A stretch of DNA of 64,000 nt from Sanderia malayensis (lineage: Eukaryota; Cnidaria; Scyphozoa; Semaeostomeae; Pelagiidae). Both the position numbers and the translations under genes were made by a program. Numbering within the stretch: position 1 is the first letter of the stretch; each line of letters begins with the position of its first letter. Location: assembly GCA_013076295.1 (NCBI GenBank), contig RQOL01000718.1, positions 4,526,001 through 4,590,000 on the forward strand, in the 5' to 3' direction. The notes under the pieces were generated by a model. It searched no databases, was not told where the DNA came from, and worked only from the letters and a program-made list of their open reading frames with translations. This document shows positions 3,371-62,776 of this stretch, one piece after another.

Positions 3371-4502
3371 ATGGCTGCTTTACTGAAATACAATGGAGAG
3401 TCTTGTAGTCAATACCTGAAAAGAAAATTCCTCATAATTAATGGAAATGCCTCTGCAGAAGATCTGCATCATCTTCTTACACTGCGCATATTATGAAGAA
3501 TATAAAGAAGCATGCCGATCCCAGGAAAGATGATCCCAAGACTTCCTCGAGGGAACATTTAGCAATGCACTTTTTGGGAAGACTAGTGCATACGAAGTTT
3601 GGAGGAAGCTGCTTTTATTGTGAAATTTGCTTTCATAGTATTCAAGTCACGGTGTGTAACACAAGAAGCTTCCACCACAATATACAGCCAGGCAGGCTAA
3701 ATCAACTCGTTTTTCTCAGACGATGAAGCCCACATGTCTGCAGGAAACGAAGAGTGCTCTAACAGTTAGGTGGCCAATATGGAGGGACAAACGCCTGCCG
3801 ATTATTCAGGGTAACCTTTCTCGTGTTGAATTTTTGTCGATAAATTAATATCATTTACTCACGTTGCTATGTCACATGCCTATGTTGCTATCAATTCTAG
3901 AAAATTTATTTCTTGTAATCCCGCAAAAAAGCCATGCATTTAATAGTTTGTCAATAACATTCAAATTACTCCTCTTTGTAGTGGTAAAAGGCAAAATGGA
4001 AGATGAAAATGTTGGGGTTGTGGTGCGTGCGCTCGTGCAACCAGTATTTAGTTGATAACGATGACGCGAATGCCGTAAGCCAATAAGGAAATTGAACATG
4101 GGACATTGTGGAAATGTGTTTCAACTACTTTAAGATTGGCATTGTGATTTCTGTCATTCAACAGCTTAATTGGATAACAAATGAATAAAGGAAATGACAT
4201 TTGGCTCAGAATAGTCTTAGACGAATAGAACCTGGCAGCATTCACTCTTTAGAACGGCCTTTCAAGCCATCCTGGTATATAGTTGGTGCAGTTTGTGAGT
4301 CAAATACGCTGTGGTATCTTTGTTGTAGTAGATCACATACGAAATCAGGACAATATATTACTACGCTTTGCAGCGGACGTAATTAAGGACATCAGGTAAA
4401 TTAGTTGTTGGTTTAGAGATTTCGCTTATTTTTTCCCGTGTTTAATGCTATTTTTAACAAGCCTTCCACTTCTTATATCATTTGTACCGTATATCCTCTA
4501 GT
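3371..4502. other. No gene recognised
   Basis: Only short open frames without recognisable domains. Probably intergenic or retroelement debris between the LTR and the foldback repeat. Confidence 0.45.
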
Positions 4503-5690
4503 TCGATCATCGGTTGCACTAGCGTGGAGGCAGTGCTACGGGAAGTGTGACCAACAAGGCAAGTGGTGCAAATTGCGTCACTTGAGAAATGAATTTATTA
4601 CATTTAAATCAACTGAAATAATTAGAATGGAATGGCATTGACATCTGCATCATTTCCATCATCCGTGGCAGTAGCGTGGAGGTAGTGCTACGGGGTGTGC
4701 ACCGACCAGGTAAGTGGTTCAAGAGCCAGGTAAGTCATCCAAGTTGATATGCAATGTAGCTCTGACTATCACAAAACAAATAATTAAATAAATAAGATCA
4801 ATTAGATAAGTAATGAAAGATAATGAAGTATAGTTGTCGGATAGGACAGGTTCGAACCATAAATACTATTAGGGACAGTTTATCTACCAAAACGCTGATA
4901 TTAGACTTGAGACATAGTGATAGTGATATAGTGGCGCATAACAGTAATGGGATATCGCGCAAATGGCCTCACTTGCAAGGGGTCATACGCTGGCGCATAA
5001 AAATCTAAGTGGAGGCGGATCAACTTTTTGTTGCAAGAAAGCACCTCTAGAGAACACGCAGAGTGAATTTATCCTCCCCTTGTATTTTCACGCATCGATC
5101 AATGTCCCCTTGCTAAATTCAACCACTTGCGCGATGCCTCCCTTGGCTTTCAATGCTAGCGTGGTAATGTGCTTGCGATAATTTGCGCTTTATTTTACGG
5201 GAGAATGACCGAAAGTAAGTTAAACATTTAGATATTAGAGTAATCAGGGATAAATGATAATTATGCTTATTTTAATGTAATTGTCTTACCTTCACTTGGT
5301 GCCGAACCACTTACCTGGTCGGTGCACACCCCGTAGCACTATCTCCACGCTACTGCAACCGATGATTGCAATGATGCAAATTTCAATGTCATTCTATTCT
5401 AATTATTTCAGTTGATTTAAATGTAATAAATTCATTTCTCAAGTAACGCAATTTGCATCCCTTACCTTGTTGGTTACACTCCCCGTTGCTCTACCACTGC
5501 ACTACTGCAACCGATGATCGAAATAATGCAAATGTCAATATCATTCCATTCTAAATATTTCACTTAATCTAAATGTAATAAATTCATTTCTCAAGTAACG
5601 CAATTTGCATCCCTTACCTTGTTGGTTACACTCCTCGTAGCACTACCTCCAGGCTACTGCAACCGATGATCGAAATAGTGCAAATGTAAG
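4503..5690. repeat. Foldback repeat with unequal arms
   Basis: The left arm (about 4503-4725) contains GATCATCGGTTGCACTAGCG, then AGTGCTACGGG, and an AAATGAATTTATTACATTTAAA block. The right arm (about 5296-5690) carries the reverse complement of the same blocks in about two and a half tandem copies with a period near 152 bp. The marker GCAACCGATGAT recurs near 5355, 5507 and 5659. The 0.57-kb centre has no recognisable gene. This is a non-coding foldback element or inverted array. Confidence 0.7.
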
Positions 5691-14414: not shown

Positions 14415-17400
14415 TTATGGGTCAAGCATAAGTTGGGACTTCCAACGCGCATCCTTCGCCGCTGCACGAACTGGGCGATTCCCGGCAAGGCGCCCCCCTA
14501 CTGACTCCACATTCCGTTCCTCCCGTTCATTCTCTCCGCTCTCTCCTTTCTCATTCGTTTCCTCATTCCTTGTCACTTCTTTCGCTTCTGTATTCACCTC
14601 ATTCTCCTTGGAAGAAATTTCTAGAGGAAAAAGTTTTTGTAAAGGTCGAGTAAGACGTTCTGACTTACCTTTACCGGACTTTCGAACCACTGCTCCTCTA
14701 CATTGACCATCCTTTCCAGTTATCAGATCCTCCACAATACCTACCTTCCATAAAGCTCTCTTTACATTATCTTCGTACAGAAGTACAAGATCTCCTTTAC
14801 CAATCTTTGAAGGGTTGTTGTCTTTTATCTTGTGAAATTCTCTAAGGTCAACTAAATACTCCTTTCTCCATCTATTCCAGAAATAAGAAGTCTGTCTCGT
14901 TAGGTATAAAAATCTTTTAGACAATTTATCTTGAGAACTGTCAAACATATCCTTATTAGGGGTTGTACCTTCAGCTAATGAGGATAATCGATAACCATGA
15001 ATTAAATGCGAGGGAGTTAAAGCTTCATCAAGTTCATCATATATGTACGTGAGTGGTCTAGTGTTCAAGGTACCTTCAATTTCTGTTAATACTGTACTAA
15101 GCTCATCTTGACTTAACTTAGCATTTCCTAATACTTTCCTTAAACACCGCTTGACACATCCAACCATACGCTCAAAATAACCGCCCCACCAAGGTGACCG
15201 GGGTAGGTTAAAATTCCATTCAATTCTATGTAACTGTTGGTATGCAAGAAAACTACTGTCTGTAGGGGTCTTGGTAAGCAATTTGGCTGCAGCCTTGAAG
15301 GTCTTGGCATTGTCTGAATTGACAAGCCTCGGAGTTCCTCTCCTGGAACAAAATCTTCTAAATGAATTCAAAAATGTACTTGTATTAAGATCATTAACTA
15401 ATTCTAGATGCAAAGCTCTCGTGACACAACAGGTGAACAGACATATATAGACCTTACTCATTTCCCCCTTTTTAGCCTTGACATACAGGGGTCCTGCGAA
15501 ATCGATACCAACATTCGAAAACGGTTTGTTTTCCGTCACCCTAAAACTTGGTAAATCTGCCACAGGTGGTGATTGAAATGCCTTTGCTTCCAACCTTTTG
15601 CAAACTTGGCACCTATTGATTACCTTCTTCACTTGCTGTCTACCTTGTGGGACCCAGAAACGAGATCTAAGTTCAGTTAGAGTAGACCTGAGTTTGTTGT
15701 GATGAACTCTGACATGGCAATCGAAAATTACAAGATCAGTGAAACTGTTGTTCTTAGGCAAAATCATAGGGTATTTGGACCTGAAATCTAGATCTGACTG
15801 ACTCAATCTCCCTTTGCAAACTAAAATACCTTTCTCATTCTGAATGCCTAACTGCTGTGATGTCTTCTGAAAGCTTGCATTCTGTCGCATATTATTCTGA
15901 ACTTCTACAATCCATGCTTTTTCTGCTGCTTCTATCTCCTCAACTCTTATGCTACTCATAATGCACTGATCACCAGCCTTCTTCCTCTTCAAGTTCTCCA
16001 CAAAACGCATCACCAAAGCAGTTACTCTTAGAAGCTTCATCAGACTTCCATACCTCTCTATCTTCACTACTTTACTCAATCCAACTTCTTCTTGTTCTAC
16101 CGTTAGCATAACATTAGTCTCTTTCCTTTCATCTTCAACCTCTAATGAATCATCTGGACAGAATTTATCCGGCCAATAATCTTGTCCTTTCTTTAACCAT
16201 TCTGGACCTTCCCACCATAATTTACTACTCTTTAGATAACTGGCTGTCACTCCTCTAGAACCCAAGTCTGCTGGGTTCTCTATTCCAGCTACATGTCCCC
16301 AATCTTCTTTCTTACTAAGTCTCAAAATTTCATTCACTCGGTGTTGCACAAACTGCTTCCATTCGCCGTTATTATAAATCCAGTACAGGGCAGTTTTGCT
16401 GTCTAACCAGTACTTCACCTGATCTATTCTAACTTCTGTACCAATTGCATCTAAAACTGTATTCATCAACGTAGCTACTACCCTAGCTGACATTAATTCT
16501 AAACGAGGTATCGTGAGCTTCTTCAAAGGTGCAACTCTAGTTTTTGCACTCACTAGACTAGTATGTATGCCACTGCTGGTTTTATAAACAAGAAACACCA
16601 TTCCACAGTATGCCTTTTGACTAGCATCTGCAAATCCATGCAGTTCGCAACTAATAATATCCTCTGCATTAGTATTGATTATACATCTATTCACTAAAAT
16701 ACTCTTTGTATCTAACAAGTCACGCAACCATGCTTCCCACCTTAAGCATTTATCCTTGGGTAATGGATCATCCCAGTTAAGCTTTTCAAGGCATAGTTCC
16801 TGGAAAATTATTTTAGCAGTGACTGCAACAGGACTAGTTAATCCGAGTGGGTCGAAAAGAGAAGCTAAGATACTAAGAATACCTCTCTTAGTAGTGCAAT
16901 GCATATTGTTTATCTCCTTTCCTATCTTACACAACTCAAACTCTATCAAATCCTTCTGGTTGTCCCATGTTAATCCCAAAACCTTAGTCCTCCCATTTGT
17001 GCTATCAGCAATCCCTAGAGTCTCCTTAACATATGAATAGTCCTCATTCACTGCTACCACCCTGGTTTCTCCTTGGCCAATTTTCCCTGCAAGAATTGAA
17101 TCATTGGTTTTCCACTTCCTTAAGGTAAATCCTCCTGCCTTCATTCTATCCTTAGATTTTACATACAAGTCATGGGCTGACTGGGTATCCTTGCAAGATG
17201 TTACCAAATCGTCTACAAAGAATGATCGCACTAACTTATTCGAAAATTCAGGGTCAGTTTCCTTGTACTTATTTATATGATGCCGAAGTGTGCAGTTCAA
17301 TAGAAATGGTGAGGAATTGCACCCAAAAACTACTCGGTTAAACCTATAAACAACTATCTCTGGCTCTTTAGCATTTACATCCTTAAACCAGAGAAATCTT

Positions 17401-19080
17401 AAGCAATCTCGATCTTGCGGGTGAATTTCAATATTCAAAAATGCCTTCTCTATGTCGCCTACCAGTGCTATTGGGTTAGACCTAAATCTTAAAAGAACAT
17501 CAAAGATCATAGGAGTTAGGGAAGGACCTACATGTAAGCAATCATTTAATGATACCCCTGCTTTTCTGTCTTTGCTAGAGGCATCGTAAACTATACGGAC
17601 CTTAGTTGTTTCTGCACTCTCTCTAATGACTGCCCTATGTGGAAGGTAGTGGACTTTACTTACTGATTCTAACTCAGAAACTTGCTCAATAATGCCTTCA
17701 CTAGCTTGTTCTGAAATGATTTCATCATATTGCTTAAGCACCTCAGGATTCTCTTTCAATTTTCTAGCTTGATTGTTTAATCTTATTTGACTAATATTAT
17801 AGTTTGAAGGTAAAGATTTATGTCCCACCTTCCATGGAAGGCCAACAGAATAATGAGTTCCATTAAACGTGATATCATCTAACACAGTCTCATGTATGGG
17901 ATCTCCTTCACGAATACCCAAGCTATCCAAATCCCATAATTTGTGGAGGTTTGAATCAATTTCCTTCTGGCTTGCAGCTTGAGTTACAAAATTTACATTG
18001 CAAGCATTAATGGAAGCAGATAAGGTCTTACCTTTCAAAGGTCCTGACAGCACCCAACCAAGGCTTGTCTTCACAGCAACGGGCTCTCCTGGCCCCCCTC
18101 GTATTGTCTCGTCCTCTTGGAAGGCCCAAAGAAAGTCTGAGCCAATCAGACAATCTATTTCCAGCATACTGCTACACCTAGACACATCTGCAAACCATAC
18201 CTTATTTAAGTGTGCAAAATCCTTTTTAACTGTTTCAATATGAATATTAGGAATAGAAGAAATATCTTTAACTACATAAGCTTCTATTTCCACATTCTTC
18301 TTTCCTTCCTTTCCACTCAGAGACATTTTTATTACATCTCTCATTGCCACTTCCATCTCTTCACTTCCAAATGCCTTTATACCCAGTCTTTCTTTCCTCA
18401 CAGGCTTTAACTCAAGTTTGCTCACAGCCTTGGAAGTGATAAAGGTTTTGTGGCTTCCTGTATCAAACAAAACTCTCACCATTCTATCACTCTTGCCATC
18501 TACTACTGCCAAGGCTGTTTGCAAAGCCACTCTCCCTTCTGAGCCAGTATTACCTACCCAAGATGTTGCCTGGGGGTCCAGTTGTGGTGCAATAGGTTTC
18601 GGTTGCGCTTCCTTACTGGGGTTGGAACCAGGGCAAATAGAAAAATGGTGATTCCCTTGTTTACAACTCTTACAAGATACTTTACTTGTACACTTGAATG
18701 ACCTATGACCTGGTTTTAAACAACTAAAGCATCTACCGTATTTTATAAGAATTTTCTTACGCTCTTCTGCATTCTTGTAGGATTCGCAGCTTTCCGATTT
18801 GTGCTCTCCCAAGCAAAATGCACACTTGCTCTTTCCCTCATTTCCAGTAAATAGTGCTGAAGCTGTTGCTGGTTTAGGCTCCAAAAGCTTAGGCCGTAAT
18901 TGTTGATCGCTTCTTCTTCCTCCACTCTGTCCACTTTGACCGTGACCATGCTGAAAAATTGGAACATGTCCTTCCAGAACTTCCACTTCTTTGCCCAGGG
19001 CTGCCAACATTTCGTCAAGGTTCCATTCCATATGATTTGATCCAAACCTTATCATATTGTTCCTGATGATCTCTGGAATC
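14415..19080 (-). CDS. BEL/Pao gag (3' part) and pol polyprotein
   Basis: The downstream piece of the split gag-pol frame. In order from the N terminus: nucleocapsid Cys-rich knuckles (CAFCLGEHKSESC, CFSCLKPGHRSFKC, CKSCKQGNHHFSIC); a retropepsin-like aspartic protease with FDTGSHKTFI; a BEL reverse transcriptase (ALVGDIEKAFLNI, then the catalytic box as FFVDD); RNase H (HGFADASQKAYCG); the zinc-binding integrase N-terminus (HVRVHHNK...CQVCKRLEAK); the integrase core (VGIDFAGPLY, VNSDNAKTF); and the C-terminal domain with TPSHLIHGYRLSSL. The frame is open for over 1550 codons to a stop at 14415. The part upstream of 19080 continues in frame at 24601 across the nested transposon, so this copy cannot make an intact polyprotein. 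Confidence 0.93.
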
Positions 19081-19350
19081 TATGGAGTCAGGTAGTGGAC
19101 AATATGGCGCTTTGTGCTTTGTCGCGGCAGTCTTCAGTTAGTGGAGGTGATTTTCAATTAGTGGCAGTGAAATTCTTCAGTTAGTGGCAGTGGTTTTCAA
19201 TCTGTGGCAGTGAATTTCAATTTGTGGCGTTGAATGACTTTGATTGACAAGCAACTTCGTAGTGGCGCTTTGATTGACAAGCAACTTCGGAGTGGCGCTT
19301 CGATTGACAAGCAACTTCGGAGTGGCGCTCAGTCCCGGGGGTCGGTCAAT
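19081..19350 (+). repeat. Left inverted repeat of copy A
   Basis: It contains sub-repeats. GTGGCAGTG words recur at 19160-19220. A 28-bp unit built on GACAAGCAACTTCG.AGTGGCGCTT repeats three times, ending AGTCCCGGGGGTCGGTCAAT. Confidence 0.93.
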
Positions 19351-19556
19351 AACGACTGAAAAAGAGTTTTACACACTGCATGTAGACCATGTAAGTATAG
19401 TGTAGAATGTATAAAATATTTTAGGGAATTGTGGGTCGAAGATTGAGTTGCACCGTTCTCTGCCATTTTTATATAAAAAAGAGTGTAGGGCGTTGGCAGC
19501 CATGAGTCTAAAGAAAAACTAAAATCACGCTCTTTCCATTCCGAAGTTTCAAAATA

Positions 19557-21035
19557 ATGACGACACCCACGGAAACACCGCAAAAGAACTTAAAAAACTT
19601 TGTTTTGAATGTTTTGAGACGAGTGAGAAGAGACCTCGAGAACTTTCCTATTTTTGCTGATAGAGACATAGTTGATCACGCGTTGTACAAGTTAGAGTAC
19701 GTAGCAGTTTTGTTGATTCGATGCATGGACACATGGCCTAATTTTGTTGACCAAGAAACTATAAATTTGATACTATATGCACATCAACTATTGGATATCT
19801 CAACTGAATCCTCAGATGGAAGCTTTATTGCAGAATCAGGTTCGGGAAAGCCTGGCAGACCGCAGATACAGATTCCCTGTGAAACACTAAAGCTCTATTT
19901 AAGTTACGGCTTTTCAAAGGCAAAAATTGCCAAGTTGTTTTTTGTTAGCCCTAAAACGATCACGCGCAGAATCGAGCAGCTCAATTTGCAAAATTCAGTT
20001 GTGCAATATTCGGATATAACCGATTTCGAGTTAGATGGAAATGTGACAGAAATATTTTCCCAATTTCCAAACTGTGGAATTCGTAGAATGAAAGGTTTTT
20101 TACAAGCACGTGGTTTAAAGATACAGTGGGACAGAGTTCGGTTATCCATGTGGCGCATTGACCCAGAGGGAATTCTACTTCGTACGACTCAGCTGAACGT
20201 CATAAAAAGGAGAAAATATTCGGTTCCAGGGACTTTAGCCCTTTGGCATTTAGATGGGAACCACAAGTTAATAAGATGGCGTTTCGTTGTACACGGCTGT
20301 ATTGATGGTTTTTCACGCAGAATTGTTTTCTTAAAATGCTCTACTAACAACAAAGCAGCCACTGTTCTCGCATTGTTCCGGGAGGCTACCGAGCGTTTTG
20401 GTCTACCTTCTCGTGTAAGGGGTGACCAAGGGGTGGAAAATGTGGATGTTGCGTATTTCATGCTGACTCATCCTCTGAGAGGTCCTTCGAGGGGCAGTTA
20501 CATGGCTGGCAAAAGTTGCCACAACCAACGAATCGAGAGGTTTTGGCGAGATTTGTTCCAGGGCTGTTTATTTCTTTTCTACTATCTCTTTCATTACTTA
20601 GAAGACAACGGGCATTTAGATATCAATGATGAAGTTGACTTGTTTTGTCTTGAATACGTGTACCTGCCCAGAATCAACAGGCATATGGAAACTTTCTTGG
20701 AAGGATATCATAACCATCCCATTCGTACTGAATGCAATAAGACGCCTTTACAGCTTTGGGTTGAAGGCATGCACAACTACACCCCTGGAGATGATGTTAT
20801 TGAAACATATACATCACATGGTGTAGATTGGGATGGACCTTTGCCATCAGAGAGATTCGATGGGCCGGTTACCGATGAAGCAATCTGTATTCCAGAAATC
20901 ACGAGCATATCCAGAAATGCCCTAGAGAGTCTAAACATTGACCAAATGCGGTATGATCATGTTGGTAATGATAGTGATGGAATTAATACATACTTATATG
21001 TGAGAGAACACCTCAAAAACACAATATATACTTAA
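19557..21035 (+). CDS. DDE integrase-like transposase (copy A)
   Basis: A 492-residue single-exon protein. Residues 1-100 are helical with no known domain. Residues about 108-142 look like a helix-turn-helix ([19 protein letters not shown]), suited to binding transposon ends. The retroviral-integrase-like core follows with D233 (WHLDGNHK), D290 (RGDQGVEN) and E327 (NQRIERFW), a D-56-D-36-E spacing, plus conserved [10 protein letters not shown] between the first two. It probably cuts and joins the element ends. It begins 207 bp inside the left inverted repeat and converges on the HECT gene with a 230-bp gap. The core is shared with the copy B protein at 56987-58547. No break was seen. Confidence 0.9.
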
Positions 21036-21265
21036 TCGTCAAAATAAAAGATTATCCAGCGTATCACAAGCAAGTTAAAAGCAAAATGATTTATATTTAA
21101 AGTATAATTCATCACAATATGGTATACATATACCTAGGAAATACCAAGGAAATATACCTAGGATATATATAAATAGGAAATTATATATAGTATTTTAAAA
21201 AAAACTGATAGTTATATAAAATCGAAATTGTGTGTATGCGTCTGACTTTTCCCGAGTTGGTGGCC

Positions 21266-24064
21266 TCATGGGTTGGGAAAGCCTTTCCGTCCAAACTTTA
21301 ATGCTATCATTATAGCATCTTTGAATTTACCTTGTGTTGAATGCACAGTCGGAATCCGTATTATTTTTAGGCATGCAGAGGAGGTTGGAAGCTCATGGCT
21401 GTCATCATCTGGGAGAAATTGAACTCTCATCGTCGGTTTTGCGTTCACCATAGGCATTGTTTCCCAACTTGTTGTAAATGACAATATAGCCTCTGCTATA
21501 TTGTAAGTTGGATCATCCTTCTGTAATGGATCATCAGAGTCGGCAACAAGGCTCGAAAACCAGTCACGGGCTTGCTCCTCTGCAAAATCTTTCACCGCAT
21601 CATACTCAAGCAAATTTTGCAAGTCTTTCGATCCAAAGCGCTCACTTCTGGCCACGAATAACTCTTTGAGCCTCTCAGGGTATGATGCAATGGCTTTGAA
21701 AAATCCCAGCGTTTCAAGACCTTCTTTGATTTCTTCAATCAGATCTTTTCTTGATCTAATTACCTCGTTGTAGATAAGCTCCTGAATTAGACTAGATTTA
21801 TTTCGGGGAGTGATTGATTCCTCCATTGGCCAGTGGCACGCATTAACTATTTGCCAATAAGCGTCGCATTTGCTACCAGCAAATATGGATTGTACAACAT
21901 CATTTGACTTTGCTGTATCCAGCTCTTCAATAAGGGTATGAAGGTTTTCCGTTGCTGCATTCATCGGGATATCATGCTTACTCAACAGATTGTGAATTTC
22001 TTCAACACTTTCTCCCAACATACAGGACACGATGGCAGGCGACAACTGCGGGATTTTTTTAACTGGACCATTTTGTAAGACAGTATGTACGATCATTATT
22101 CCAGTCATGCGGAAAAGGAAAAGCTTGCTAGAATCTCTAACAGGAACCATGCTTTGAAAATTCCCTTCAAACAGTCTCTTGACAATCTGTTCCCAAGCGG
22201 AGTTAAAAAACTCGATCATGACGGCTCCACCATCCAGACCATCTTCACTTTTAAATTTGACTTCTAAACGATTGCACAGCACAGATGGCTGTTGACCTTT
22301 CTTCTTATAGAACTTTAAAACTTCAGACCAAAGTGCATCCCTATCCACTGTCAATTCTTCTGGCATTTGATTAGCATGAGCGATTTGGAACTCATCCAGC
22401 AATGTATGGAGCGTAACATTTTTCGTTGCTGTACAGCTGCTTGTTGAAGGTAGGATCTCTCTGACATCTGTTGTGCCATACGAATCAAGAAGAGTATCAG
22501 CAGCTTCCTCCAAAGATTTTGCACCTTTCACTGAACACTGCAGGTGCTCTTCTTTGTGCATGGGGAACAGGCTTTGCAACGTTTGCATCCAGACATTTTC
22601 CTCTGCGAGTGTTGTTTGAATAGACGACGAGGCCTCTGCAGATTCAGGTCTTGTGACGGTTGAGCTGCTGCTGGTTTTCATACAGTCCAATTGGAACGAC
22701 TCAGCAAAGCAGTCGTCATCTGATGAATCTTCAAAATATGCTGATGAAGATGTCGCAGTCGATGTGCATCGCGAAAGATGACTCTTCATATCTGCTAGCG
22801 ATATACTTGAGTTGCAGGTACGGCATGTAGTTTTTATGGAAACGTCCACATTCTCTGTCACCTTTGACAATGACAAATCACTTTGCATTGGCCGTATATA
22901 CAACACAGCGTTTGAACTGACTTGCTCTTTCAGGTAGGGAACGGTATATCCATCCTGTGACATGGGTATAAGCACTAAGTTGACAGATACACCTCCACGC
23001 TCACCTCGCAAAATTTCAAACGCTCCGTTCTGGCATTTCATCTTCGGGTAGATAGTTTCGAGGACCTGGCGCACTTTTCCATGTCCAGACTTTTTATTGT
23101 CGAACGTAATTCGTCTTTTGCCAAGACCTGCCTCCTTCAGCCTCGTAAGTTCTGTCAAAGATGGTGTTTTGGTTGCATTTTTTTGTGCCAGTAGACAAAA
23201 ATCATGAGTATATGTCTCTTTTGGAGCCACAATTACGCAGGACTGCCTTCGTGCTTTTTTGGGCACTATTGCATCCCTTCTTCCACTGCCTCCAAGACTT
23301 GGAAATGAACGCCTGTAGAGAGTAAAACGCCTTCTTAGTCATAGGCTAATGCTATGTGTTTTCTAATCAATTAATCGACAATAAATAATCATACCGGGTG
23401 AGTAAAAAAATGTTAGACGTTTGCTGATCTTATAATAGTTGATATAATAAATGTTCCAAATGTTTCTGAATTAAATATCGTATTGTAGAATTCGGCTTTA
23501 AAACATATGCCATCCAGTTGGTTTTCAACCATATATAATTTCATAGAAAAATTTTGTTTCTACAAACAGTCTACCTTCAAAAATTTGGCTAAAATAAATA
23601 GGGGTGGGTTCTTCTTTTTGTGGAAAAAATGGTATTTCTAAAAAAAAACTTTTCTCCACCCTCTGGACTTGAGAATAATAAAAGGGTACTATGTGACGTC
23701 ATTTTAAAAGACGTAAGACCATTCTTTGAAGAAAATTTCTTTTTTAATTCAATTCTTACCTAAAATCCTGGTTCACCGCAGCCATGTGGCTAGTAGTGCG
23801 GCTTGTTACTGCCACTGGAAGTCTTCTCATAGGTGGATGAAATGGTCTGCGATTTTCTCCAGTACTAGTGGACCTGGCAATAGGCCTCGTATGTTGATGT
23901 GTTGCTGTTTCCGTCTCTTCTTGCGCTCGATTGAGATCCCCCATCCCCGAATCCGTTTGTTGCATCTGAAGGAGTCCATGGTTCTCCTCCAATCTTTCGA
24001 TTCGTCTGATTGCTGCTTCAAGCAAAGTCGGAATCCCTTCGCTTGCATTTAATTCCTTTTCCAT
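21266..24064 (-). CDS. HECT-domain E3 ubiquitin ligase (copy A)
   Basis: My splice model has two exons, 23760-24064 and 21266-23312, joined in frame, giving 783 codons. Exon 1 encodes a helical, probably coiled-coil segment (LLEAAIRRIERLEEN). Exon 2 has a basic start, a C-x2-C...H-x3-C finger-like patch (CRTCNSS..LADMKSHLSRC), a serine-rich linker, and a HECT domain over about the last 330 residues. The presumed catalytic cysteine lies in LPTSSACLKIIRIP, 35 residues from the C terminus, where HECT enzymes carry the thioester-forming Cys. Its substrate is unknown; linkage to a transposase suggests a role in transposition or host interaction. It lacks the zinc-ribbon first exon seen in copy B. 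Confidence 0.85.
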
Positions 24065-24403
24065 GTTTCATTCAGATCATAAGGACAATATAATATCGGA
24101 GTTAAACAGAAATTGGAAAGGAGAGATTGGGAAAGGAACACAGCGGGAAAGAAAATGATAAAAACACAACCAGTCCAAGTGTGTTGACAGATTCTTCCCT
24201 TTTTCGTTCCTGAAGAGTCCCTAACATTTCTTTGTTTTTCTATTTTACTCTACGTTTCTAAATGTTTCTAATTCCTTAATTGTTTCTTCATTTTTTATCA
24301 ATTACTATAATTCCTTATGATAAAAAAGGTGCCGTGTACCTGCATTTCAAGATAAAAAAAAATTTCACAAGAAACCATTGCACAAAAAAATTTACTTCAA
24401 TAG

Positions 24404-24600
24404 ATTGACCGACCCCCGGGACTGAGCGCCACTCCGAAGTTGCTTGTCAATCAAAGCGCCACTACGAAGTTGCTTGTCAACCAAAGTCATTCAACGCCAC
24501 AAATTGAATTTCACTGCCACTAATTGAAAATCACCTCCACTAACTGAAGACTGCCGCGACAAAGCACAAAGCGCCATATTGTCCACTACCTGACTCCATA
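24404..24600 (-). repeat. Right inverted repeat of copy A
   Basis: Mirror of the left end with one fewer GTGGCAGTG block and one fewer 28-bp unit. The outer about 90 bases are identical to the left end. Confidence 0.93.
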
Positions 24601-25457
24601 GTAATCTTCCCCATAAGAACAGGTACGATGACGCTCGAGTATGACTTCTGGTTAATTTCTTGAGCCTCCATTGCACGGAAACGGGTCTCGATCTGATCGT
24701 GAAGCACTCGCAACCGCTGTACATTCTTTTCGCTGTAAACTGGAGCCAAGTTGATGAGGTCATTAAGGTGTGCCCTCTTAATCACGCTGGGTTTCGCATA
24801 TCTCTTTCTCAATAGCTCCAGTGCTGCGTCATAATCTGCATCAGTCAGGGAAAATCCCGTTACCACACCTTTGGCCGGCTCTTCTAAGTAGCTGCGTAAA
24901 TACTTAAACTTGTCGACCTCTGCTAGCTGATCATCATCATGTATTGAACTCTTAAAACCGTCCCAAAACTCCGGCCACTCTGCTATTTTGCCGGAGAATT
25001 TTTTCAGCTCTAATTTAGGTAGCTTAACTTTTCTGCTACTCGCTCCTTCAGCAGCTAGGCTTGATCTTACACTTGCTACACTTTCCACTGAACCAGCTCT
25101 ACTCAGTGATCCATTCTCAGAATGCCTTGAACTGTTATCACAATTAGTTTCATTTAAAGCAGCTTCAATCGAGTTAAGACAAAATCCAATTTTTTCACTT
25201 ACTTCGCTTGCCTCTGCTACTTCGTTCTCGCAGTTTTCATCGTCCAGATCTTCTTCAATCATGAGATCAAGAATCGCCTCATCCAAACCCTTCAAATTCT
25301 CCTTCCTTTCTCTTAACTCGGTAGCATATTGTCGTAGCTTACCATAAGCGAGATTATCCGGGTCTTCGTTCAAATGTGCGTCCACTTTGTTCACGAGTCT
25401 TGTTACAACTCCTCGGTGGACCTTTCGTCCCTTTTTCGTTTTCTCTATTTCTTCCAT
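24601..25457 (-). CDS. BEL gag N-terminal part, truncated by insertion
   Basis: Starts at the ATG at 25457 (MEEIEKTKKGRKVHRGVV), 25 bases inside the primer binding site; a longer open frame begins in the LTR and is ignored. It contains an acidic, helical N-terminal region, a serine-rich linker and the gag segment LPKLELKKFSGKIAEWPEFW near residue 145, typical of the BEL/Pao gag DUF1759-like domain. It runs into the nested transposon after PVLMGKI and stops about 20 codons inside it. The rest of gag lies upstream of pol at 19080. Confidence 0.9.
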
Positions 25458-25466
25458 TGTCTTTAT

Positions 25467-25482
25467 CCGGCTCGGTGGACCA
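25467..25482 (-). promoter_or_regulatory. BEL primer binding site
   Basis: On the minus strand, four bases after the 5' LTR, TGGTCCACCGAGCCGG would pair with a tRNA 3' end. I did not assign which tRNA. Confidence 0.7.
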
Positions 25483-25486
25483 TTTA

Positions 25487-25964
25487 TGTAGAGAATCTTA
25501 AATTCTCTTCTTACTGATTCGCAGAGAAACACGAATAAGACGCAGCTCTATTCCCACTGTATAATCATATAATTCAAGACAACGCTTTCTACATCATGTT
25601 ACTCTTCTTTGATCTAACTACCAAGTTACACAGAAGGGTTTTTTATAAGTGAACAACAAGATCTATAAATTTAGCTATCCGATCAAAAGTAAGAAAAACA
25701 GTTAGTCAAACCAATCAAATTCTACGCTGCTTAAGCCTTGATACAATAGATTGACGTTAAAGGAGATGCTAGAAAGTTCTAAACTTTTACTCATTTCCTT
25801 GTCTCTACACGAAAACGAGGTTATTACGCACGAAGCGCTAAGCATATAGAGTAAAGAGGAACTTCTAACTGTTCGGTGTGCAAAAATAACATTAATATAC
25901 GGTGAGTCATACGAATAAGATAATAATAATAATAATGAGATAATAACGAGGGCTTTTCCCAACA
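25487..25964 (-). repeat. BEL 5' LTR
   Basis: 478 bp, nearly identical to 13916-14393, and followed by the target duplication GGAAG at 25965-25969. A short open frame covering it (about 25702-26010) is also present in the other LTR and has no known domain. Confidence 0.95.
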
Positions 25965-39685: not shown

Positions 39686-41533
39686 ATGGCGGCAACCTCA
39701 ACTGTTGGTGATGTTGAGTGTGAAGAAGGAATGGTTGATAAAAACATGTCTTCGGCGATTTTAAGCAATTTGGACAAGCTGAGAAAAGATGGAATACTGT
39801 GTGATGTTGTGATAAAATGCGGGACAAATAGTATAATAGCCCATAAAGTTGTTTTGGCCGCAGCAAGTCAGTACTTTTGTGCCATGTTCTCAAACGGTAT
39901 GTCCGAATCGCAGCTATATGAAGTGAGTAAAATTTAATTTAATTTTATTTTATGGGAAATGAAAAGTTAATTCTTTGTTTATATTAGCCCGGAATTCTCA
40001 TCAAAGGTTGTTATTTTTCAGATTGAACTCAAAGATTTGGATTATGAATCTATGAATGTTTTGGTAGATTACACATATACTGGAGTTTTGAAAATACAAA
40101 ATGACAATGCTCAAAGTGTTTTGGAAGCATCAGATCTTTTGCAGTTTAAAAACGTTAAGCAATGTTGTTCTGAATACATCAAAAATAAAATTGATATCAA
40201 TAATTGTCTAGATATACATGAACTTGGAGACAGATATTCCTGTGAAATTCTGTCAAAAGAAACATCTGAATATTTCAATAAGCATTTTGTTGAAATAGCA
40301 AAATCAGCAAAGAAATTCATGGATCTGAGTAGCATGAAACTGAAAATTCTCATTCAAAATGATGAAATAAATGTTGATAATGAAACCCAAATTTTAAATG
40401 CCTGCATGTTATGGGTTGGGCATGATGCAGAAAGAAAGAAATATTTACCAGAACTTCTCAGGCACCTGAGGTTGCCATTTGTACAACCATCAGAACTAAA
40501 GAAGATTTTATTAATTGACAGTTCTTTATCACATATTTTGAAAGAAGACTTGCTTCTTGTGAAGCCAAGAAGTAACAAGTTGCATCATTATAACGATGCA
40601 AGCATGCGGAATTCTTACAAACAATGGTTGTACATCCTTGGAGGTGAAAAATCATTTCTTACAGAAATTAATGATGTTGAGTGTTTTGAGCACAAAATGA
40701 AGACGTGGACCTTATGCCAACCGTTGAAAAATGCACGATCTTCATTTGCAGCAGTTGTGGTGAAAGGAAAATTGTACATTATTGGTGGGATGCGAAAAAG
40801 CAAGAAGTTACGAAGTGCCAAATGTTATGATCCAGAGACAAGAAAGTGGACAACATTGCCCCCTCCTTTGAAATGCATGGGGGACATTAAAGCTGCAGTT
40901 GTAAGTGATATTTTGTATGTAGCAGGAGGCTCAGGTGAAAGGGAGTTTGCATGTCGGTATCTGGAGAAATACGACCCAAATGAAAAGAGATGGGAAAGGT
41001 TGGAGAATATGATTAAGAGAAGAAGAAGATTTAATTTGGTTGAATTGAAAGGATTGATTTATGCCCTCGGAGGTTTTGATGATATTCATGGTGATTTAAA
41101 AAGTATGGAACATTATGATCCATCAACAAATTGCTGGACAAGAGATGCTTCAATGATTACAGCAAGAAATGATTTTGGTTCTGTTGTTTTATCAGGCCAT
41201 ATTTATGCAGTGGGTGGGGCTAATGGTAGCCAGGGCTCAATGAATTTGGTAGAAAGGTACAATCCGGTAACTAATGTTTGGTCACAGTGCGCAAGAATGA
41301 ATAATTGTCGTGGTGGTCTATCTGTTGCTGTGTACTTTGGAAGAATTGTTGCATTGAGTGGTATGAACATTTACATGGCATTGTTAGAAACTGCTGAGTA
41401 TTACAATGAAACTGAAAATAAATGGTTCCAATTTCCTTCATTGCAAATTGCACGATTTGGAAGTGTTGCTATTTGCCTTCCATTTGAAATGCCTTCAAAT
41501 GTGTTATCCGTTATAAACGATAATACTGAATAA
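39686..41533 (+). CDS. Kelch-like BTB-BACK-Kelch protein
   Basis: Two exons, 39686-39922 and 40022-41533, joined at a GT-AG intron of 99 bp, giving 582 residues, the usual length for KLHL proteins. Residues about 22-130 form the BTB domain (CDVVIKCGTNSIIAHKVVLA, then DYTYTG). Residues about 135-240 form the BACK domain (WVGHDAERKKYLPELLRHLR). From about 275 there are six Kelch repeats (LYIIGGMRK, LYVAGGSGE, IYALGGFDD, IYAVGGANG and others). KLHL proteins are substrate adaptors for CUL3 ubiquitin ligases; the BTB domain binds CUL3 and the Kelch propeller binds substrate. The subtype is not resolved. No defect seen. Confidence 0.93.
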
Positions 41534-56388: not shown

Positions 56389-56757
56389 GTGCAGCGATTC
56401 GTTTTAGAAACATTTGGAAAACGATATTTGGTTGGCTTATCTGGTTTGGTTATTAACTTTAATTCGTGGTCAGAATCGAGAAGGCCAAAAAAGGCCAATT
56501 TTATTTCGACAAGAACACAGGAGTTGCTTTCTTGTCGTGGGGTTAACTTGACAAAAGTGAATGCCTGGAAGGTGTGCGGAAGTGTAGTAGGCTCCCAAAA
56601 CTATTGTGTCATCATTTTCACCATCATTATGTATTTTATTGTTTTAGCAGGGGATATTGAAAGTAATCCCGGTCCAGAAAATCTTGACTTCAGATTTCAA
56701 GGGGTTTCCTACATTTATTCCCCTGTTTTTGGTATTGTTTTGTACGGTGGCCCATAA
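56389..56757 (+). pseudogene. Truncated retroelement-type ORF ending in a 2A ribosome-skipping motif
   Basis: A 122-codon frame. A hydrophobic run leads to GDIESNPGP at 56651-56677, matching the 2A consensus D-x-E-x-NPGP, where ribosomes skip a peptide bond before the last proline. 2A-like sequences are known at the N-terminus of CR1/L2-type non-LTR retrotransposons of marine invertebrates. Only about 27 codons follow before the stop at the edge of copy B of the integrase+HECT transposon, so the downstream partner is lost. No endonuclease domain is attached. The start codon is uncertain. Confidence 0.55.
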
Positions 56758-56760
56758 CTG

Positions 56761-56892
56761 TCACATCAAATTCAAACCTTCACATCAAATTCAAACTCTC
56801 ACATCAAATTCAAACTCTCACATCAAATTCAAACTCTCACATCAAATTCAAACTCTCACATCAAATTCAAACTCTCACATCAAATTCAAGCG
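56761..56892 (+). repeat. Left 19-bp end array, copy B
   Basis: Seven near-perfect tandem units of TCACATCAAATTCAAACTC beginning at 56761, 56780, 56799, 56818, 56837, 56856 and 56875. The first unit ends CCT and the last is altered. It probably serves as transposase or regulator binding sites. Confidence 0.95.
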
Positions 56893-56986
56893 AAGAATGA
56901 AAGCGAGGCTGACCACGTGGTCTATACATCAGACTCTTGATTTGCTCTGTACATCAGAATCCAGCCTGCCGTTCTCTTCACACAAA

Positions 56987-58547
56987 ATGTTTTGTTTTTC
57001 ATGTGGCCATGACTTGATTGCAAATACCAATTTTTGTACCAGATGTGGATTAGGTAAGAACAAAATATATGTAATGTTTATGCCAATGAAAGTAGCGCTG
57101 GAATAATATATAGGCCTAGAAGAAAATAATCTTCAGATTCCCCGGCCAGCTAGTTGTCATTTCTCGGCTAGTTGTCATTTTGCGCAGATCCTGGAAGAAA
57201 TAAGCATAACTTTGAAGATAGGGTCTAGCCACCTCTTTAGTGCCTGACAAAAGTGTTGGAAGTACATGCTGAAAGTCCCCTTGTGGGTGGAGATGTTTGA
57301 ATTGTCAATATTTTTAAGTTTATTTTTTTTCCTTGCAAACAGCTACTGGAGGCAATGCTAATCATGAACATGATATGCTGGATGACGAGTACGAGGATGA
57401 GAACAATCCAGCAAACTTTAATGAAGAGGATTTAATAAGATATTATTTCAACCGAGGATTCAAATACGAAGAAATAATTCAATTTCTCGCGAAATATTAC
57501 AACCACAGCATAAGTTACAGCACTCTTCTCAGAAGGCTTAAGCAGTATGGACTGAAAAGACGAGATCAACTCACGAACGACATTTTCATCAGAGCACGGG
57601 CAAGAATTTCAGACATCATAAACGGCCCTGGATCAGCTGGTGGTTATCGGACAGTCTGGCACACTCTAGAGCTTGAAGGCATGCGGGTTCCCAGAATCGT
57701 AGTCCAAGAAATGTTACGTGAATTAGATCCAGAAGGATGCATGCTAAGAAGCGCTCGCCGACTGAAAAGGAGAGAATACATAAATCCAGGTCCAAACTAT
57801 GCTTGGCATATGGACGGGTATGACAAATTAAAGCCATGGGGATTTCCAATACATGGCTGTATCGACGGTTTCAGTAGACGTATTTTGTGGCTAAAAGTTT
57901 GCAAATCAAATAATTTCCCAAGTATTCCTGGCTCTTATTATCTGGGAGTTGTAACTAAACTTGGTGGCTGCCCCGCAGAATTGGTGTCTGATCTTGGTAC
58001 TGAGAACAGTCTTGCAGCTACAATGCAGTCTTTTTTCCGCGATAATCCCGAATCACACAGGTACGTTCCATCCCCCAGGAATCAAAGAATAGAAGGGTGG
58101 TGGTCTTTTTTCAGCAAAAACAGGACAATTTGGTGGAGAAATTTGTTTAAGGATATGGAATCAGAAGGTGAGATAGATCTTTCTTCCGAATTGAGCAAGG
58201 CTTGTTTGTGGCATAGCTTCCATGGACTGCTGCAGCAAGAGTGCGATTTCATTAAAGAGCATTGGAATACACATTATATTAGAAGATCACGTCATGAAAC
58301 TGTCAGTGGTCGCCCAGATTCATTGTTTTTCCTACCGGAAATGCACAACGCTGAGAATCTGATCAAAGCAGTCGAAGCAGCTGATATAGCATATGCAAAG
58401 AATCACCTACTGACCCTGGATGTATGTGAATATACGGAATACGTTGAATACATCGCCCAAGAAATGTCTGCGCCAAAGCCTGCTACATGGCAAGAAGCCT
58501 GTACTCTAAATAGAGAGCTAATGAACAAAATTAATGAAATTAACTGA
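56987..58547 (+). CDS. Zinc-ribbon DDE integrase-like transposase (copy B)
   Basis: Two exons, 56987-57053 (67 nt) and 57343-58547, giving 423 residues. The downstream ATG in the intron near 57333 is not used in this model. Exon 1 encodes a zinc ribbon: C3, C6, C17, C20 in MFCFSCGHDLIANTNFCTRC. Exon 2 has an acidic stretch, a helix-turn-helix-like segment (YEEIIQFLAKYY...YSTLLRRLKQYG), then the core with [26 protein letters not shown] and NQRIEGWW holding the D, D and E. Same core as copy A. The ribbon probably binds DNA or a partner. Converges on the HECT gene 250 bp away. No break seen. Confidence 0.9.
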
Positions 58548-58797
58548 TAATTTTTTGGTATAAACAACCACGGTGGAATCAAGCTGCTTGAGTAAACAGT
58601 GGAAGGCCCTGCCCTTGCAAGAAGGGAACATTTGATTATTTTCTACCTATCATAAGGCATAAACCGAACAATATCAAAAATTAATACACTGAACAGTAAG
58701 TATAAAAACTACAATTGTTTGAATAAAACGTTACAAAACGGAACACTGGTCATTGTTTGTTTGTCCACTTGGTTCAAATTTTAATGGAACTTAGAAG

Positions 58798-61095
58798 TCA
58801 TGGTCGTCCAAAACTCTGTGCCTGTGAAACCGCCAAAGAAAATAGGGAATAAAACTCCTCTGTTGTTTTGAAGTGTGCAGTGGGAAATGTTATTTCTTTT
58901 GCACAGGCACTCACAACAGGAAAACATATTCTATGAGTGGGGTTTCGTACCAGACACTCGTGATCGAAGAATACACTGATTTTCATTTCATCACCATCCA
59001 GTGGCTTGTGCGAGCTACCTGTTATCCACTTCAAAACTGCTTTGGGACTTGCTTTGATCTCTTCGAACTTCTCATCCAAACTCTCTGGTTTCTTTGTTTC
59101 ATCTCCTTCGTCAGATGTATCTGGATAATTCCATGTGATGGCAGACAAGTGGCTTTTGATTTCTTGGGGGTTGTCTTCAAGGTGAAACAAATAATCCTGG
59201 AACAGGTCCATGGTATGCTCTTCAGTCTTTCTCCTTGTACTACCCATCTCTGAGAAGTTTGGACAAAGCAATGAAAACAAATAGTTGGCGTTAATTATCC
59301 CATCATCACCACCTTTTACAAATAGCTCTTTGCAAACACTTCCATTTTTCAAGAGGATATCTTTCAATCCATACAGGTTTAATCCTTCCATGAACTCTGC
59401 CAAATAGACTGCCCTCTGACTTACTATACTGACCATCACTGACCCCTTGATTTCTTCAATATGGTTGACATCAATTACTCCGGTGTATCCATGATCAATG
59501 ATTTGATCTGTGCTACTATCTAGATCTGCAGTTAAAATTGTTAGCTGCTTCTTTTCATTCTCAGTGAGGCTTTTGTCACACAGCTCTTTCATGTCAATCA
59601 TTGGGTGAATGAGTTGTTTATATACACATTCTGCAAGGAAGGTTGGCGCTGGCCCACCTTGTGCAATACTAGCAGCAACTAATTGACCACATGCCTTAAA
59701 ATTTCCATTCTTCACGTGCAATGTTGAGGAAAGTGGACTTCCAAATGGAAACATCTGCCTCCCAATGTCTGAAATCGAATTAGAGAAAAATTCTTTGGCT
59801 ATGGCCCCACTGTCAATTCCATATTCACCAAGGTAATGCACACGAATTGCTCTTTCTGGGCTTCCGAGTCTTACTTGACGTTGCCACAAGGATAAAATTC
59901 TGAAGATATCAGCACCTCTTCTAACAGTGAACAATAAATTCTCTGAACGGTCCACTTTGCTTGCAAGGCTCTTGACAACATCCTGGACACTGTTTATGTT
60001 CATTGTGATTTCAATACTCTGCTTTGGAAGGATTGCTTCATTCAGGCTTCTGTGAAGCTCTAGGGCTACCTTTTCATCACTCTCTGTGTGAGGTTTCTCA
60101 ATAACACTTTCAACCTGCTCTATTCCTCCTCTTGTTTCTGTTTTCCTTATTTTAAAGGCAGGAAATTCCAAATCAAAATCATCATCACTTACGCTGACAA
60201 CATCCTTCTCAACATGTGTGAAATCAGTCTTTGTGCAGAGATAAAGAGTTATTCTATTGTAATCGTGACCCTTCTCTTCCCTGTACCGTTTCAGAGTAAA
60301 TTTTTCATTGCTGCCAGGCAGGAAGTTGGCTCTCTGCCCATCTTCATAACAAAGAATGTATTCTTCATCTTCATCATAAAGATCACTTTGGTATGCCCGC
60401 CACTTTTCTTCGGCCTTAGCCAGAAATTCCTCATAGCCAATACCACTCTTGACTTTCAAAGCCAGCCGTTTTCCTCGCTTTGCTTTAACCTTCTCAATCT
60501 TGTGATTCCATTCCATCAGGCCTATGAAAATTGCCACATCTGGATCCTTGGCTTTCTTTTTGCTGTTCACTTTGGCCTTCCACTGCTTTCCTTTTCCCAA
60601 CTTGAAGTCATGGAAAGACTTGAACCGAGGTGCAATTCCAGCTGGGCCTTCTTTCGAAGAACTTGCAACAGAGCAATTTGTCATTGAAGAGCCTGCAGGA
60701 TATCCTGGCACTTGGCCAACATTGTCCAGTTTTACATCTAGTGTGAAAATATGATTTCCAATTGAAAAAAACCCTCAACATACACCCATCAATAGTGGTA
60801 GGAAAAGTCATTTGGATTTCAGTTTTAGATGAGGTATTCTTATGAAACATCCACTTTATCATTTTATAAATAATTTGCATATTTTACTGTTCATCATTTT
60901 CACACATTGTTCTATAGACTTAGGTCTGCGCCAATTCCACCTTCCACACATGCAATTAGGCCCTCATTCAAATATGGTTTCGTAATGAAAGCTCGTGTTC
61001 AAAAACAAGTAAATGCTAATATTCATACCTGCTCCACATTGTGCGCAAAAGTTCGCTTGCTTGCCAAGTTCACTGCCACATGAATGGCAAAACAT
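58798..61095 (-). CDS. Zinc-ribbon HECT E3 ubiquitin ligase (copy B)
   Basis: Two exons, 61029-61095 (67 nt) and 58798-60737, giving 668 residues. Exon 1 encodes a zinc ribbon, C3, C6, C17, C20 (MFCHSCGSELGKQANFCAQC), with exactly the spacing of the transposase exon 1. A Lys-rich region and a mid region follow, then a HECT domain over about the last 370 residues, including YLGEYGIDSGAIAKEFFSN near its start. The presumed catalytic Cys is in FPVVSACAKEITFP, 35 residues from the C terminus, the same distance as in copy A. It would transfer ubiquitin to an unknown substrate. Confidence 0.9.
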
Positions 61096-61208
61096 TTCGT
61101 TGTTTTCAGCTTCACACACTCAAAAGAGACCTTGTACATACAACAGCTCACGAGCTCAGTGGACACAACACAATCCACTCCACGTGCTCAGCCTCGCTTT
61201 CATTCTCA

Positions 61209-61322
61209 GAGTTTGAATTTGATGTGAGAGTTTGAATTTGATGTGAAGGTTTGAATTTGATGTGAGAGTTTGAATTTGATGTGAAGGTTTGAATTTGATG
61301 TGAGAGTTTGAATTTGATGTGA
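61209..61322 (-). repeat. Right 19-bp end array, copy B
   Basis: Six units in inverted orientation; GAG- and AGG-type unit starts partly alternate. Beyond 61322 is GATTCAAACACATCAAAT, which can fold back on the last unit. Confidence 0.95.
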
Positions 61323-61651
61323 GATTCAAACACATCAAATATAGAGAAACGACCTGTTACCAATATAGATATCTGGGCTTCCAAGCACGCTAAACACCCC
61401 CTCTCCATATTTTTTGAAGCACTCATTTCAAAACATATCGTTTTAATCAAATGCTAGATGCTTTAGTCCTGGTTACATCACAGCAGCACTCATTTTAACA
61501 ATGTTAACAGCTAGTCTAAGCTATAGAAACAGGAGAATATTTCTATTCTCATGTCTTCTCATGTAAAAAGCCACAGCCAGAACAATTGAATTGGATGCTC
61601 CTGTGTTGTGGAAATGCAAGCAACTTTTCGGATGTAAGTTATCGGGATGAG

Positions 61652-61779: not shown

Positions 61780-62776
61780 ATGGCAAAGAAATCGAAGAAA
61801 AAGGCAATAAAAACTGGATGCAAGAATGGGAATAACAGAAAATGCATCTGTTCGGTTCATCTTGGACTACCTGTTACATCAGAAAGTAAGAATAAAGTTT
61901 GATAATTCATTTTGTGAATGGCTTAACCAAAATTTGCTTGCATGGTTTTAAAAATTATTTTACATTACAGCTTTGCCTGTTACAGAAGACGAGGGCTTAA
62001 CTATAAACAGGAGGAGAAATAAGAGATACATTGCGAAAAGTAAATCAAACCCATGTTCCTTGCAACCAGAGGGGAAAGAGTATCCGATTGATTTGTGGTA
62101 TCACGTTAGTCGATATATCAAACCTAACCAAATCAAAACCTTTTCTTTGATTTGTCAAAGCTCGTGGAATATAATAAATACATCACAATTTTGGCTGGCA
62201 CTCTATCGAAAATATGTTTGCAACCATCATTGCCTCCCATTGAGTTTACAGCCTCAGAATATTGATGCAAAACCAGGCATAAAATCTAGAGTTATCCGTG
62301 CATTATTTCATGCATACAGTCCTTTTAAGAGCAAAATAGTAATTGAAGATTACTCTCCTCATATCATCAACAAGAAATGCATACTTTTCTGGTGGGAAAA
62401 AGAATTCTCCACCAGGAGAAATAATATGATGTGGATATACAACTTCAAATTTACTACATGCTCAAATAATGTGAATAATTTGAGAAAAGGAAGCGAGGAT
62501 GCAAATCTATTGTGCTCAAATAAAGAAGGAAATAATTGTGTTCTTAAAATAAAATGCCCTAATTATATCTACTTATCATCAGTTAATGGATTGATATTAA
62601 CTTCTTTTAATGTTAATATGAGTTCTGATATGAGATATCAACAATTGAAAATGGTTTTTCATTCTGAGAAAAGGGTTGCGAAATATAATAGAAACGAGGG
62701 ATTTCTCTTAAACATCAACCCTGTAATTGATTTTGATGTAGTTCATTGGTGGCATCCATTCTATCCATGTAATTAA
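61780..62776 (+). CDS. TMEM183: TMEM183 homologue
   Basis: Two exons, 61780-61885 and 61971-62776, in phase, giving 303 residues, shorter than the vertebrate protein (about 376). The basic N-terminus (MAKKSKKKAIK) is followed by an F-box-like stretch (EYPIDLWYHVSRYIKPNQI..FSLICQSSW..FWLALYRKY), then family positions LPLSLQPQNI, VIRALFHAY, LFWWEKEF, FKFTTCS, NVNMSSDMRYQQLKMVFH and the end VVHWWHPFYP. Assignment is from resemblance along the whole length. Function is poorly known. The start is taken at the first good ATG; a two-codon upstream ORF precedes it. Confidence 0.85.

Follow-up and report, generated by a model that had tools for sequence, protein, structure and literature searches.

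Copy B, an element in a 64-kb stretch of the Sanderia malayensis genome (contig RQOL01000718.1, positions 4,526,001 to 4,590,000; this whole stretch is called the window below), is a two-gene DNA transposon with the hallmarks of the IS3EU superfamily. Its genes, for a DDE transposase and a HECT ubiquitin ligase, lie tail-to-tail, each transcribed inward from its own end, and each opens with an exon encoding a zinc ribbon. We judge it about evenly balanced whether this ribbon, probably shared by ancestry, serves as a module that docks the ligase on the transposase. The ribbons on both proteins are established at the level of sequence; zinc binding, interaction and ligase activity are predicted. 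The IS3EU superfamily is already known, and the self-encoded HECT ligase with a shared N-terminal module would be the new part of this variant.

The exons, ribbons, repeat arrays and inner block described in a first-pass annotation of the window were all located in the sequence (Table 1). As that annotation proposed, each gene opens with a first exon of 67 nt that codes for a C-x2-C-x10-C-x2-C ribbon; both of these exons end in phase 1, and the frames remain open when they are joined to the second exons, giving 423 residues for the transposase and 668 for the ligase. Compared without gaps, the two ribbons agree at 12 of their 22 residues and at 41 of the 67 nt. Only two matches to the pattern M-x(1,2)-C-x2-C-x(9,11)-C-x2-CG were found in the window, namely the two ribbons, and none in 60 dinucleotide shuffles; the Cys pattern CxxC-x(9-12)-CxxC is present in both proteins. 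In a genome scan, the ligase exon of copy B scored 26.1 bits and other Zn_Ribbon_1 exons scored up to 33 bits.

The protein of the second transposase exon matched PF24764 (E 3e-30), and D157, D216 and E250, in the numbering of that protein, are invariant across 30 aligned sequences, copy B included. Its modelled core resembles those of IstA and the retroviral integrases. The second gene product is a predicted HECT E3 ubiquitin ligase with a catalytic Cys in the C-lobe: its HECT domain matched PF00632 (E 2e-7), and among the top Foldseek matches the model aligns over both lobes with the HECT domains of HUWE1, Smurf2, Nedd4 and others. With these ligases, the nearest by fold, it has both lobes and the catalytic-Cys motif in common, but it differs from known HECT E3s in being encoded by a transposon, in its zinc-ribbon N-terminus and in an identity of 11-15% among the 50 structure matches listed.

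Table 1. Features of copy B and of the related copy A, in window coordinates (TIR, terminal inverted repeat)
Feature	Position	Strand	Evidence or remark
Copy B, left TIR tip TACGGTGGCCCATAACT	56743..56759	+	true left end; 12-base core TACGGTGGCCCA at both ends of 10 complete relatives
Copy B, left array, seven 19-bp units	56760..56892	+	
Copy B, inner TIR block GAATGAAAGCGAGGCTGACCACG	56895..56917	+	runs on from the array in end-to-end alignments of L051 and L053
Transposase exon 1, zinc ribbon MFCFSCGHDLIANTNFCTRCGL, 67 nt, donor G/GTAAGA	56987..57053	+	Zn_Ribbon_1 E 0.001, 19.2 bits, cut-off 25
Transposase phase-1 intron, GTAAGA...AACAG	57054..57342	+	predicted from sequence
Transposase exon 2, helical region and DDE integrase core (PF24764)	57343..58547	+	
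Ligase exon 2, N-terminal domain and HECT domain, catalytic-Cys motif CFPVVSACAKEITFP	58798..60737	-	
Ligase phase-1 intron	60738..61028	-	predicted from sequence
Ligase exon 1, zinc ribbon MFCHSCGSELGKQANFCAQCGA, 67 nt, donor G/GTATGA	61029..61095	-	Zn_Ribbon_1 E 3.4e-5, 23.9 bits, cut-off 25
Copy B, inner TIR block, second end	61183..61205	-	
Copy B, right array, six inverted 19-bp units	61210..61323	-	terminal CCACCGTA missing from copy B
Copy A, related IS3EU-type element without ribbons	19081..24600	.	ends TATGGAGTC..GACTCCATA, TATGG..CCATA; flanks GGAATC/GTAATC, 5/6 alike; by eye
Copy A transposase (PF24764), without ribbon	19557..21035	+	
Copy A HECT protein, main exon	21266..23266	-	

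The first-pass annotation began copy B at 56759, and its actual left end, at 56743, lies 16 bases farther out. The right tip is lost; the relatives L051, L052 and L053 terminate in ...CCACCGTA. Consequently, the TA..TA-type end of copy B is seen on the left only, and its target duplication has gone with the right end. Shuffled versions of the window averaged 0.11 matches to the array units, compared with the seven and six units observed, and contained no match to the inner block. The gaps between array and ATG measured 94 bp and 114 bp, in agreement with exons placed about 95-115 bp inside the arrays. A matching block said to lie beside each exon is indeed present at both ends, but this GAATGAAAGCGAGGCTGA block is the inner edge of a long TIR and is not linked to the exon. 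A block that forms the inner portion of the inverted repeat provides no evidence for duplication of the exon; L062, whose transposase is without a ribbon, still has an inner block of its own at either end.

Additional copies came to light in a DNA search that used the left end as query. Counting copy B, there are at least five insertions of this young cut-and-paste family of IS3EU type. Both ends and target duplications were found for L051, L052 and L053 (AGAAAC, CAAACC and CCAAGA/CCAAGG, respectively), and a further insertion on C773, with the same flanks on C758, has the duplication AATTTC. In their exon-2 proteins, L051 and copy B are 100% identical for the transposase and 99.5% for the ligase, which argues that the family is young. 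Across the genome, TACGGTGGCCCAYAA was matched at 157 places and the reversed control at none. Six additional end-bounded elements and three partial ones were taken. Families F1 (copy B and L051-L053), F2 (L054, L055 and L058), F3 (L057), F4 (L059), F5 (L060), F6 (L061), F7 (L062), F8 (L063) and F9 (L064) were chosen by their ends, and F10 (C45:935k and C581:58k), F11 (C479:470k) and F12 (C616:1740k) by their ribbon pairs. Ribbon scores at C859, C131 and C648 match those of F12, and these may be the same family.

All 10 complete copies, from seven families (F1-F7), have TACGG..CCGTA ends with 6-bp target duplications, nine of them exact and one with 5/6 positions alike. The end arrays look unrelated from family to family. 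A HECT match lies tail-to-tail within 4 kb of 34 PF24764 matches, and one match has another arrangement, among the best 100 of the 150 listed. The catalytic-Cys motif was found in copy B, L051-L053, L055, L058 and L060, as well as in copy A, L009 and L012 (below); a search with its pattern gave no match in L054, L057, L059 or L061-L065. Gene and ribbon matches were sought in L056 and none was found, and a scan of viral contigs gave no relative.

The 5' end of the transposase gene was scored in F1-F8, F10-F12 and the lineages L065 and L010, and that of the ligase gene in F1-F12. The ligase ribbon is present in all 12 families, and in 9 of 9 among those chosen by their ends. The transposase ribbon is present in 8 of 13 lineages (F1, F2, F3, F4, F6, F10, F11 and F12), or 5 of 10 without the three chosen by ribbons; eight families of this genome have ribbons on both proteins. 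The ribbon stands in one unbroken frame with the transposase in F2, F10, F11 and F12 and with the ligase in F7, F8, F9 and F12. Because the ribbons of these relatives belong to both proteins without an intron, the worry that exon 1 might not be spliced to either gene is largely answered. An ATG lies one codon ahead of the first Cys in 11 of the 14 ribbon rows. The transposases of F5, F7, F8 and L065 start near the first conserved helices, without a ribbon, and those of F5 and F7 are on complete elements with exact target duplications. A search of L010 for the ribbon pattern gave zero matches, and tblastn recognised no HECT gene in the L010/L011 lineage. L010 and its sister copy L011 fall on the ribbon side of the transposase tree; the transposase of this lineage (PF24764, E 3e-37) adjoins an opposite-strand gene whose first frame has no Pfam match.

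The orientation of ribbons across the genome is consistent with this layout. Among 120 Zn_Ribbon_1 matches (E up to 10), neighbours 2.5-8 kb apart faced inward in 22 cases, lay on the same strand in one and faced outward in none, compared with inward pairs that averaged 5.6, and never exceeded 14, in 2000 strand shuffles. The 22 pairs include several F1 copies, a site present on two contigs, and split or tandem matches that were counted twice, so the independent loci are fewer.

The ribbon exons of the two genes probably share an ancestor, by duplication of one inverted end long before the present families split. In 8 of 10 split ribbons from both genes (both genes of F1, F3 and F4 and the ligases of F2 and F6) the donor GT lies exactly 7 nt past the last Cys codon, in phase 1, and this shared position argues for one ancestral ribbon exon. 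Furthermore, the profiles of the transposase and ligase ribbons match with 98% probability. The foldback element L079 (~986 bp, TACGGTGG ends) contains a 67-nt ribbon exon in both inverted arms, 66/67 nt identical, with GT 7 nt past the last Cys codon in each arm; no matching 6-bp duplication was found in its flanks. From L079 it is clear that inverted duplication of an end, ribbon exon included, is possible. The idea that the end had been duplicated as a unit holds in part: the process is visible in L079 and the donor position is shared, but the matching block lends it no weight and any such duplication is old, because ribbons of the same element are no closer than ribbons of different elements. 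The 22 ribbon residues do not resolve the history of duplication.

Other arrangements of ribbons near element ends were also seen. L080, a 1.4-kb stretch, has two different inward ribbons ~0.8 kb apart. Three elements of 1.2-1.6 kb with inverted TACGGTGG ends (C479:3975490-3977035, C569:3943212-3944443 and C571:3742448-3743800) contain Zn_Ribbon_1 matches scoring like that of F7, as if non-autonomous copies had retained the ribbon exon. At C686, three same-strand ribbon matches 993 bp apart (3584054, 3585047 and 3586040) lie near one end of a TIR pair (3577756-3587281), perhaps a tandem triplication of an end.

Searching integrase and HECT proteins for N-terminal ribbons, a check proposed with the first-pass annotation, turned them up in predicted transposases and ligases of other animals, the named sources both being anthozoans. 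These were the transposases P0065 (Dendronephthya gigantea) and P0003, two among the 120 relatives listed (pattern in the first 60 residues), and the ligases P0149 (Oculina patagonica), P0168 (Dendronephthya), P0159 and P0176, four among the 74 listed (first 90 residues). Of the remaining records, many resemble single-exon predictions, which would miss exon 1. A protein search with the first 92 residues returned three proteins, of which P0004 starts after the ribbon and P0196 and P0197 match over 47% of the query.

In a sister clade, a different kind of module was found. A tree of 33 transposase rows separates copy A and its relatives from the ribbon side with a support of 100/100, and on it the ribbon label requires two changes. 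L012 (TATGG ends, duplication CAAAAT) encodes a ligase that starts with SAM_1 (1.1e-6, 29.3 bits, cut-off 23), and its transposase and ligase modules are 30% identical (E 1e-6). The element at C675:5.17 Mb has the same layout, with modules 46% and 55% identical to those of L012 and a ligase SAM_1 match of 25.5 bits in the genome scan. Of the 78 SAM_1 matches in the genome, three are no more than 8 kb from one of the 100 PF24764 matches tested, all in these two elements. Since SAM-type modules occur on both proteins of two elements, a second module kind appears to be shared.

In copy A, in L009 and in the elements at C436, C824 and C45:113k, the N-terminus of the transposase does not, by eye, resemble that of the ligase. 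A general rule of an N-terminal module common to transposase and ligase was considered and rejected, given these five elements, the families with the ribbon on the ligase alone and the ribbon-free L010. Copy A seemingly lies inside a BEL/Pao-type retroelement (window 14415-25532), with a Pao peptidase/reverse transcriptase frame at 14415-19055 and a DUF1759 frame at 24540-25532, both on the minus strand. L009 (C686:3243000-3252900), in which an A-type transposase (4155-5606) lies between TACGGTGGCCCA at 3390 and a ribbon-side transposase (9890-9136), appears to be a copy-A-type element nested within a ribbon-side element.

A number of observations weigh against a shared docking ribbon. The transposase ribbon is absent from 5 of 13 lineages (F5, F7, F8, L065 and L010), and because of this neither pairing nor end binding through it can be obligatory; in F5, F7 and F8 the ribbon is on the ligase only, so ribbon pairing is not universal. 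In copy B itself, both ribbons score under the Pfam cut-off as proteins, the introns and the exon 1-exon 2 joins are inferred gene models, and the nearest public models (P0122, 100% identical, and P0004, 90%) begin in exon 2. Among the relatives, each of the two F10 ligase copies is missing one Cys, at different places, and the F11 ligase is linked to its ribbon by position alone. F10-F12 owe their selection to a pair of ribbons, and the alignment was built from ribbons recognised by Cys pattern; the invariance of the Cys residues is therefore partly a matter of choice. Two of the 10 split ribbons deviate from the common donor: the F6 transposase has GC, and the F11 ligase exon continues past the position. 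Co-variation of the ribbons within elements was not significant for eight pairs (9403 of 40320 pairings were as good) or for five (26 of 120), and the gene label does not sort the ribbons into transposase and ligase (898 of 5000 shuffles were as good). For the SAM-type modules, the match of the L012 transposase is weak and under the cut-off (SAM_2 E 0.045, 14.4 bits), and the profile comparison of its two modules gave a probability of 84.7%.

The absence of sorting by gene label, and a likeness within elements that is not above chance, would also be expected if the two genes had taken ribbon exons independently from host genes and their likeness were convergent; Zn_Ribbon_1 was found in 12 of 14 control genomes, so ribbons are widespread. 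Nevertheless, the same donor position and phase recur in both genes across families, and the ribbons occupy the same place relative to the ends, and we regard independent capture as very unlikely. A common origin might, on the other hand, have left the shared ribbon as a historical by-product, in which the duplicated end supplied a promoter and first exon and the ribbon gives only a start codon, a donor and a stable N-terminus. The common donor position, the exon in both arms of L079 and the regular placing of the ATG fit this. However, the ligase ribbon has been kept in every end-chosen family, also where no intron follows, and a second module kind appears to be shared as well; conservation of the Cys residues points the same way, with weak weight given how the rows were chosen. 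We consider the by-product explanation rather unlikely.

The first-pass annotation suggested that both proteins could bind the transposon ends through the ribbon. Cys2-Cys2 fingers often bind DNA, and the ribbon exons adjoin the end arrays, as would suit a module by which both proteins grip the ends. But the arrays look unrelated between families while the ribbons show no element-specific pattern, and five transposase lineages do without a ribbon, including F5 and F7, whose elements are complete. In two sister-clade elements the place of the ribbon is taken by SAM-type modules, which are usually protein-protein modules. We therefore disfavour end binding and think it improbable.

Pairing of the two proteins through their ribbons is the reading that we prefer. 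Matched N-terminal modules, ribbon with ribbon or, in the sister clade, SAM-type with SAM-type, would place the ligase at the transposase or at its end complex; once there, the ligase could ubiquitinate the transposase itself, or else chromatin or repair proteins of the host close by, and ubiquitination might govern the turnover of the complex or host silencing. As targets, the transposase and the host factors present at the insertion complex suggest themselves most readily. In families whose transposase has no ribbon, the ligase would be recruited by another route, or not at all. A broader version, in which modules exchangeable between families dock a self-encoded HECT ligase on the element's own transposase, the element controls through ubiquitin the life of the complex or silencing factors, and the match arose by inverted end duplication, is offered as a tentative possibility that we would not bet on as it stands. 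In RAG1/RAG2-type transposons two proteins of one transposon act together, as those of copy B might; RAG2, by contrast, is not known to be an enzyme or to have an N-terminal module in common with RAG1.

How a transposon benefits from ubiquitin enzymes is a general question, and the presence of the same module at the same place on a ligase and a transposase makes it directly testable. Sharing of a module in eight families, together with a second module type in the sister clade, frames the test: does the module join ligase and transposase, and which target is ubiquitinated? Among the relatives the pairing has been kept, half lost or replaced by another shared module, which hints at a partnership of the two proteins. 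Inverted duplication of an end, of which L079 is a snapshot, is a concrete route by which two genes of one element could come to share an exon.

The main texts of two papers give as IS3EU hallmarks a DDE integrase-type transposase without the HHCC motif, TA..TA ends (TAYGG..CCRTA in rust families) and 6-bp target duplications (PMC10045372, PMC12730594). Copy B-type elements have the DDE integrase-type transposase lacking HHCC, the TA..TA ends and the 6-bp duplications in common with these, but unlike the elements presented there they also encode a HECT ligase and N-terminal modules shared by the two proteins. Neither HECT nor ubiquitin occurs in those two main texts, where SAM was not searched, and HECT has no occurrence in the main text of PMC4255032. 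Fungal IS3EU elements are described as carrying alpha-kinase and TET/JBP genes (PMC10045372, PMC12730594). The VTD deubiquitinases of Helitrons are transposon-encoded enzymes of the ubiquitin system (PMC9741609). Like copy B, such a Helitron is a mobile element that brings its own ubiquitin enzyme; in Helitrons the deubiquitinase domain lies within the Helitron frame, whereas copy B has a separate ligase gene with a module shared with the transposase. A literature search, with Repbase and subscription papers outside its scope, found no paper combining IS3EU and HECT among those it listed, none with HECT, zinc ribbon and transposase, and none with GingerRoot, ubiquitin and transposon.

Elsewhere in the window, an open frame of 267 aa to the right of copy B (61973-62776) has no Pfam match, and an ordinary BTB-BACK-Kelch gene lies at 40037-41533.

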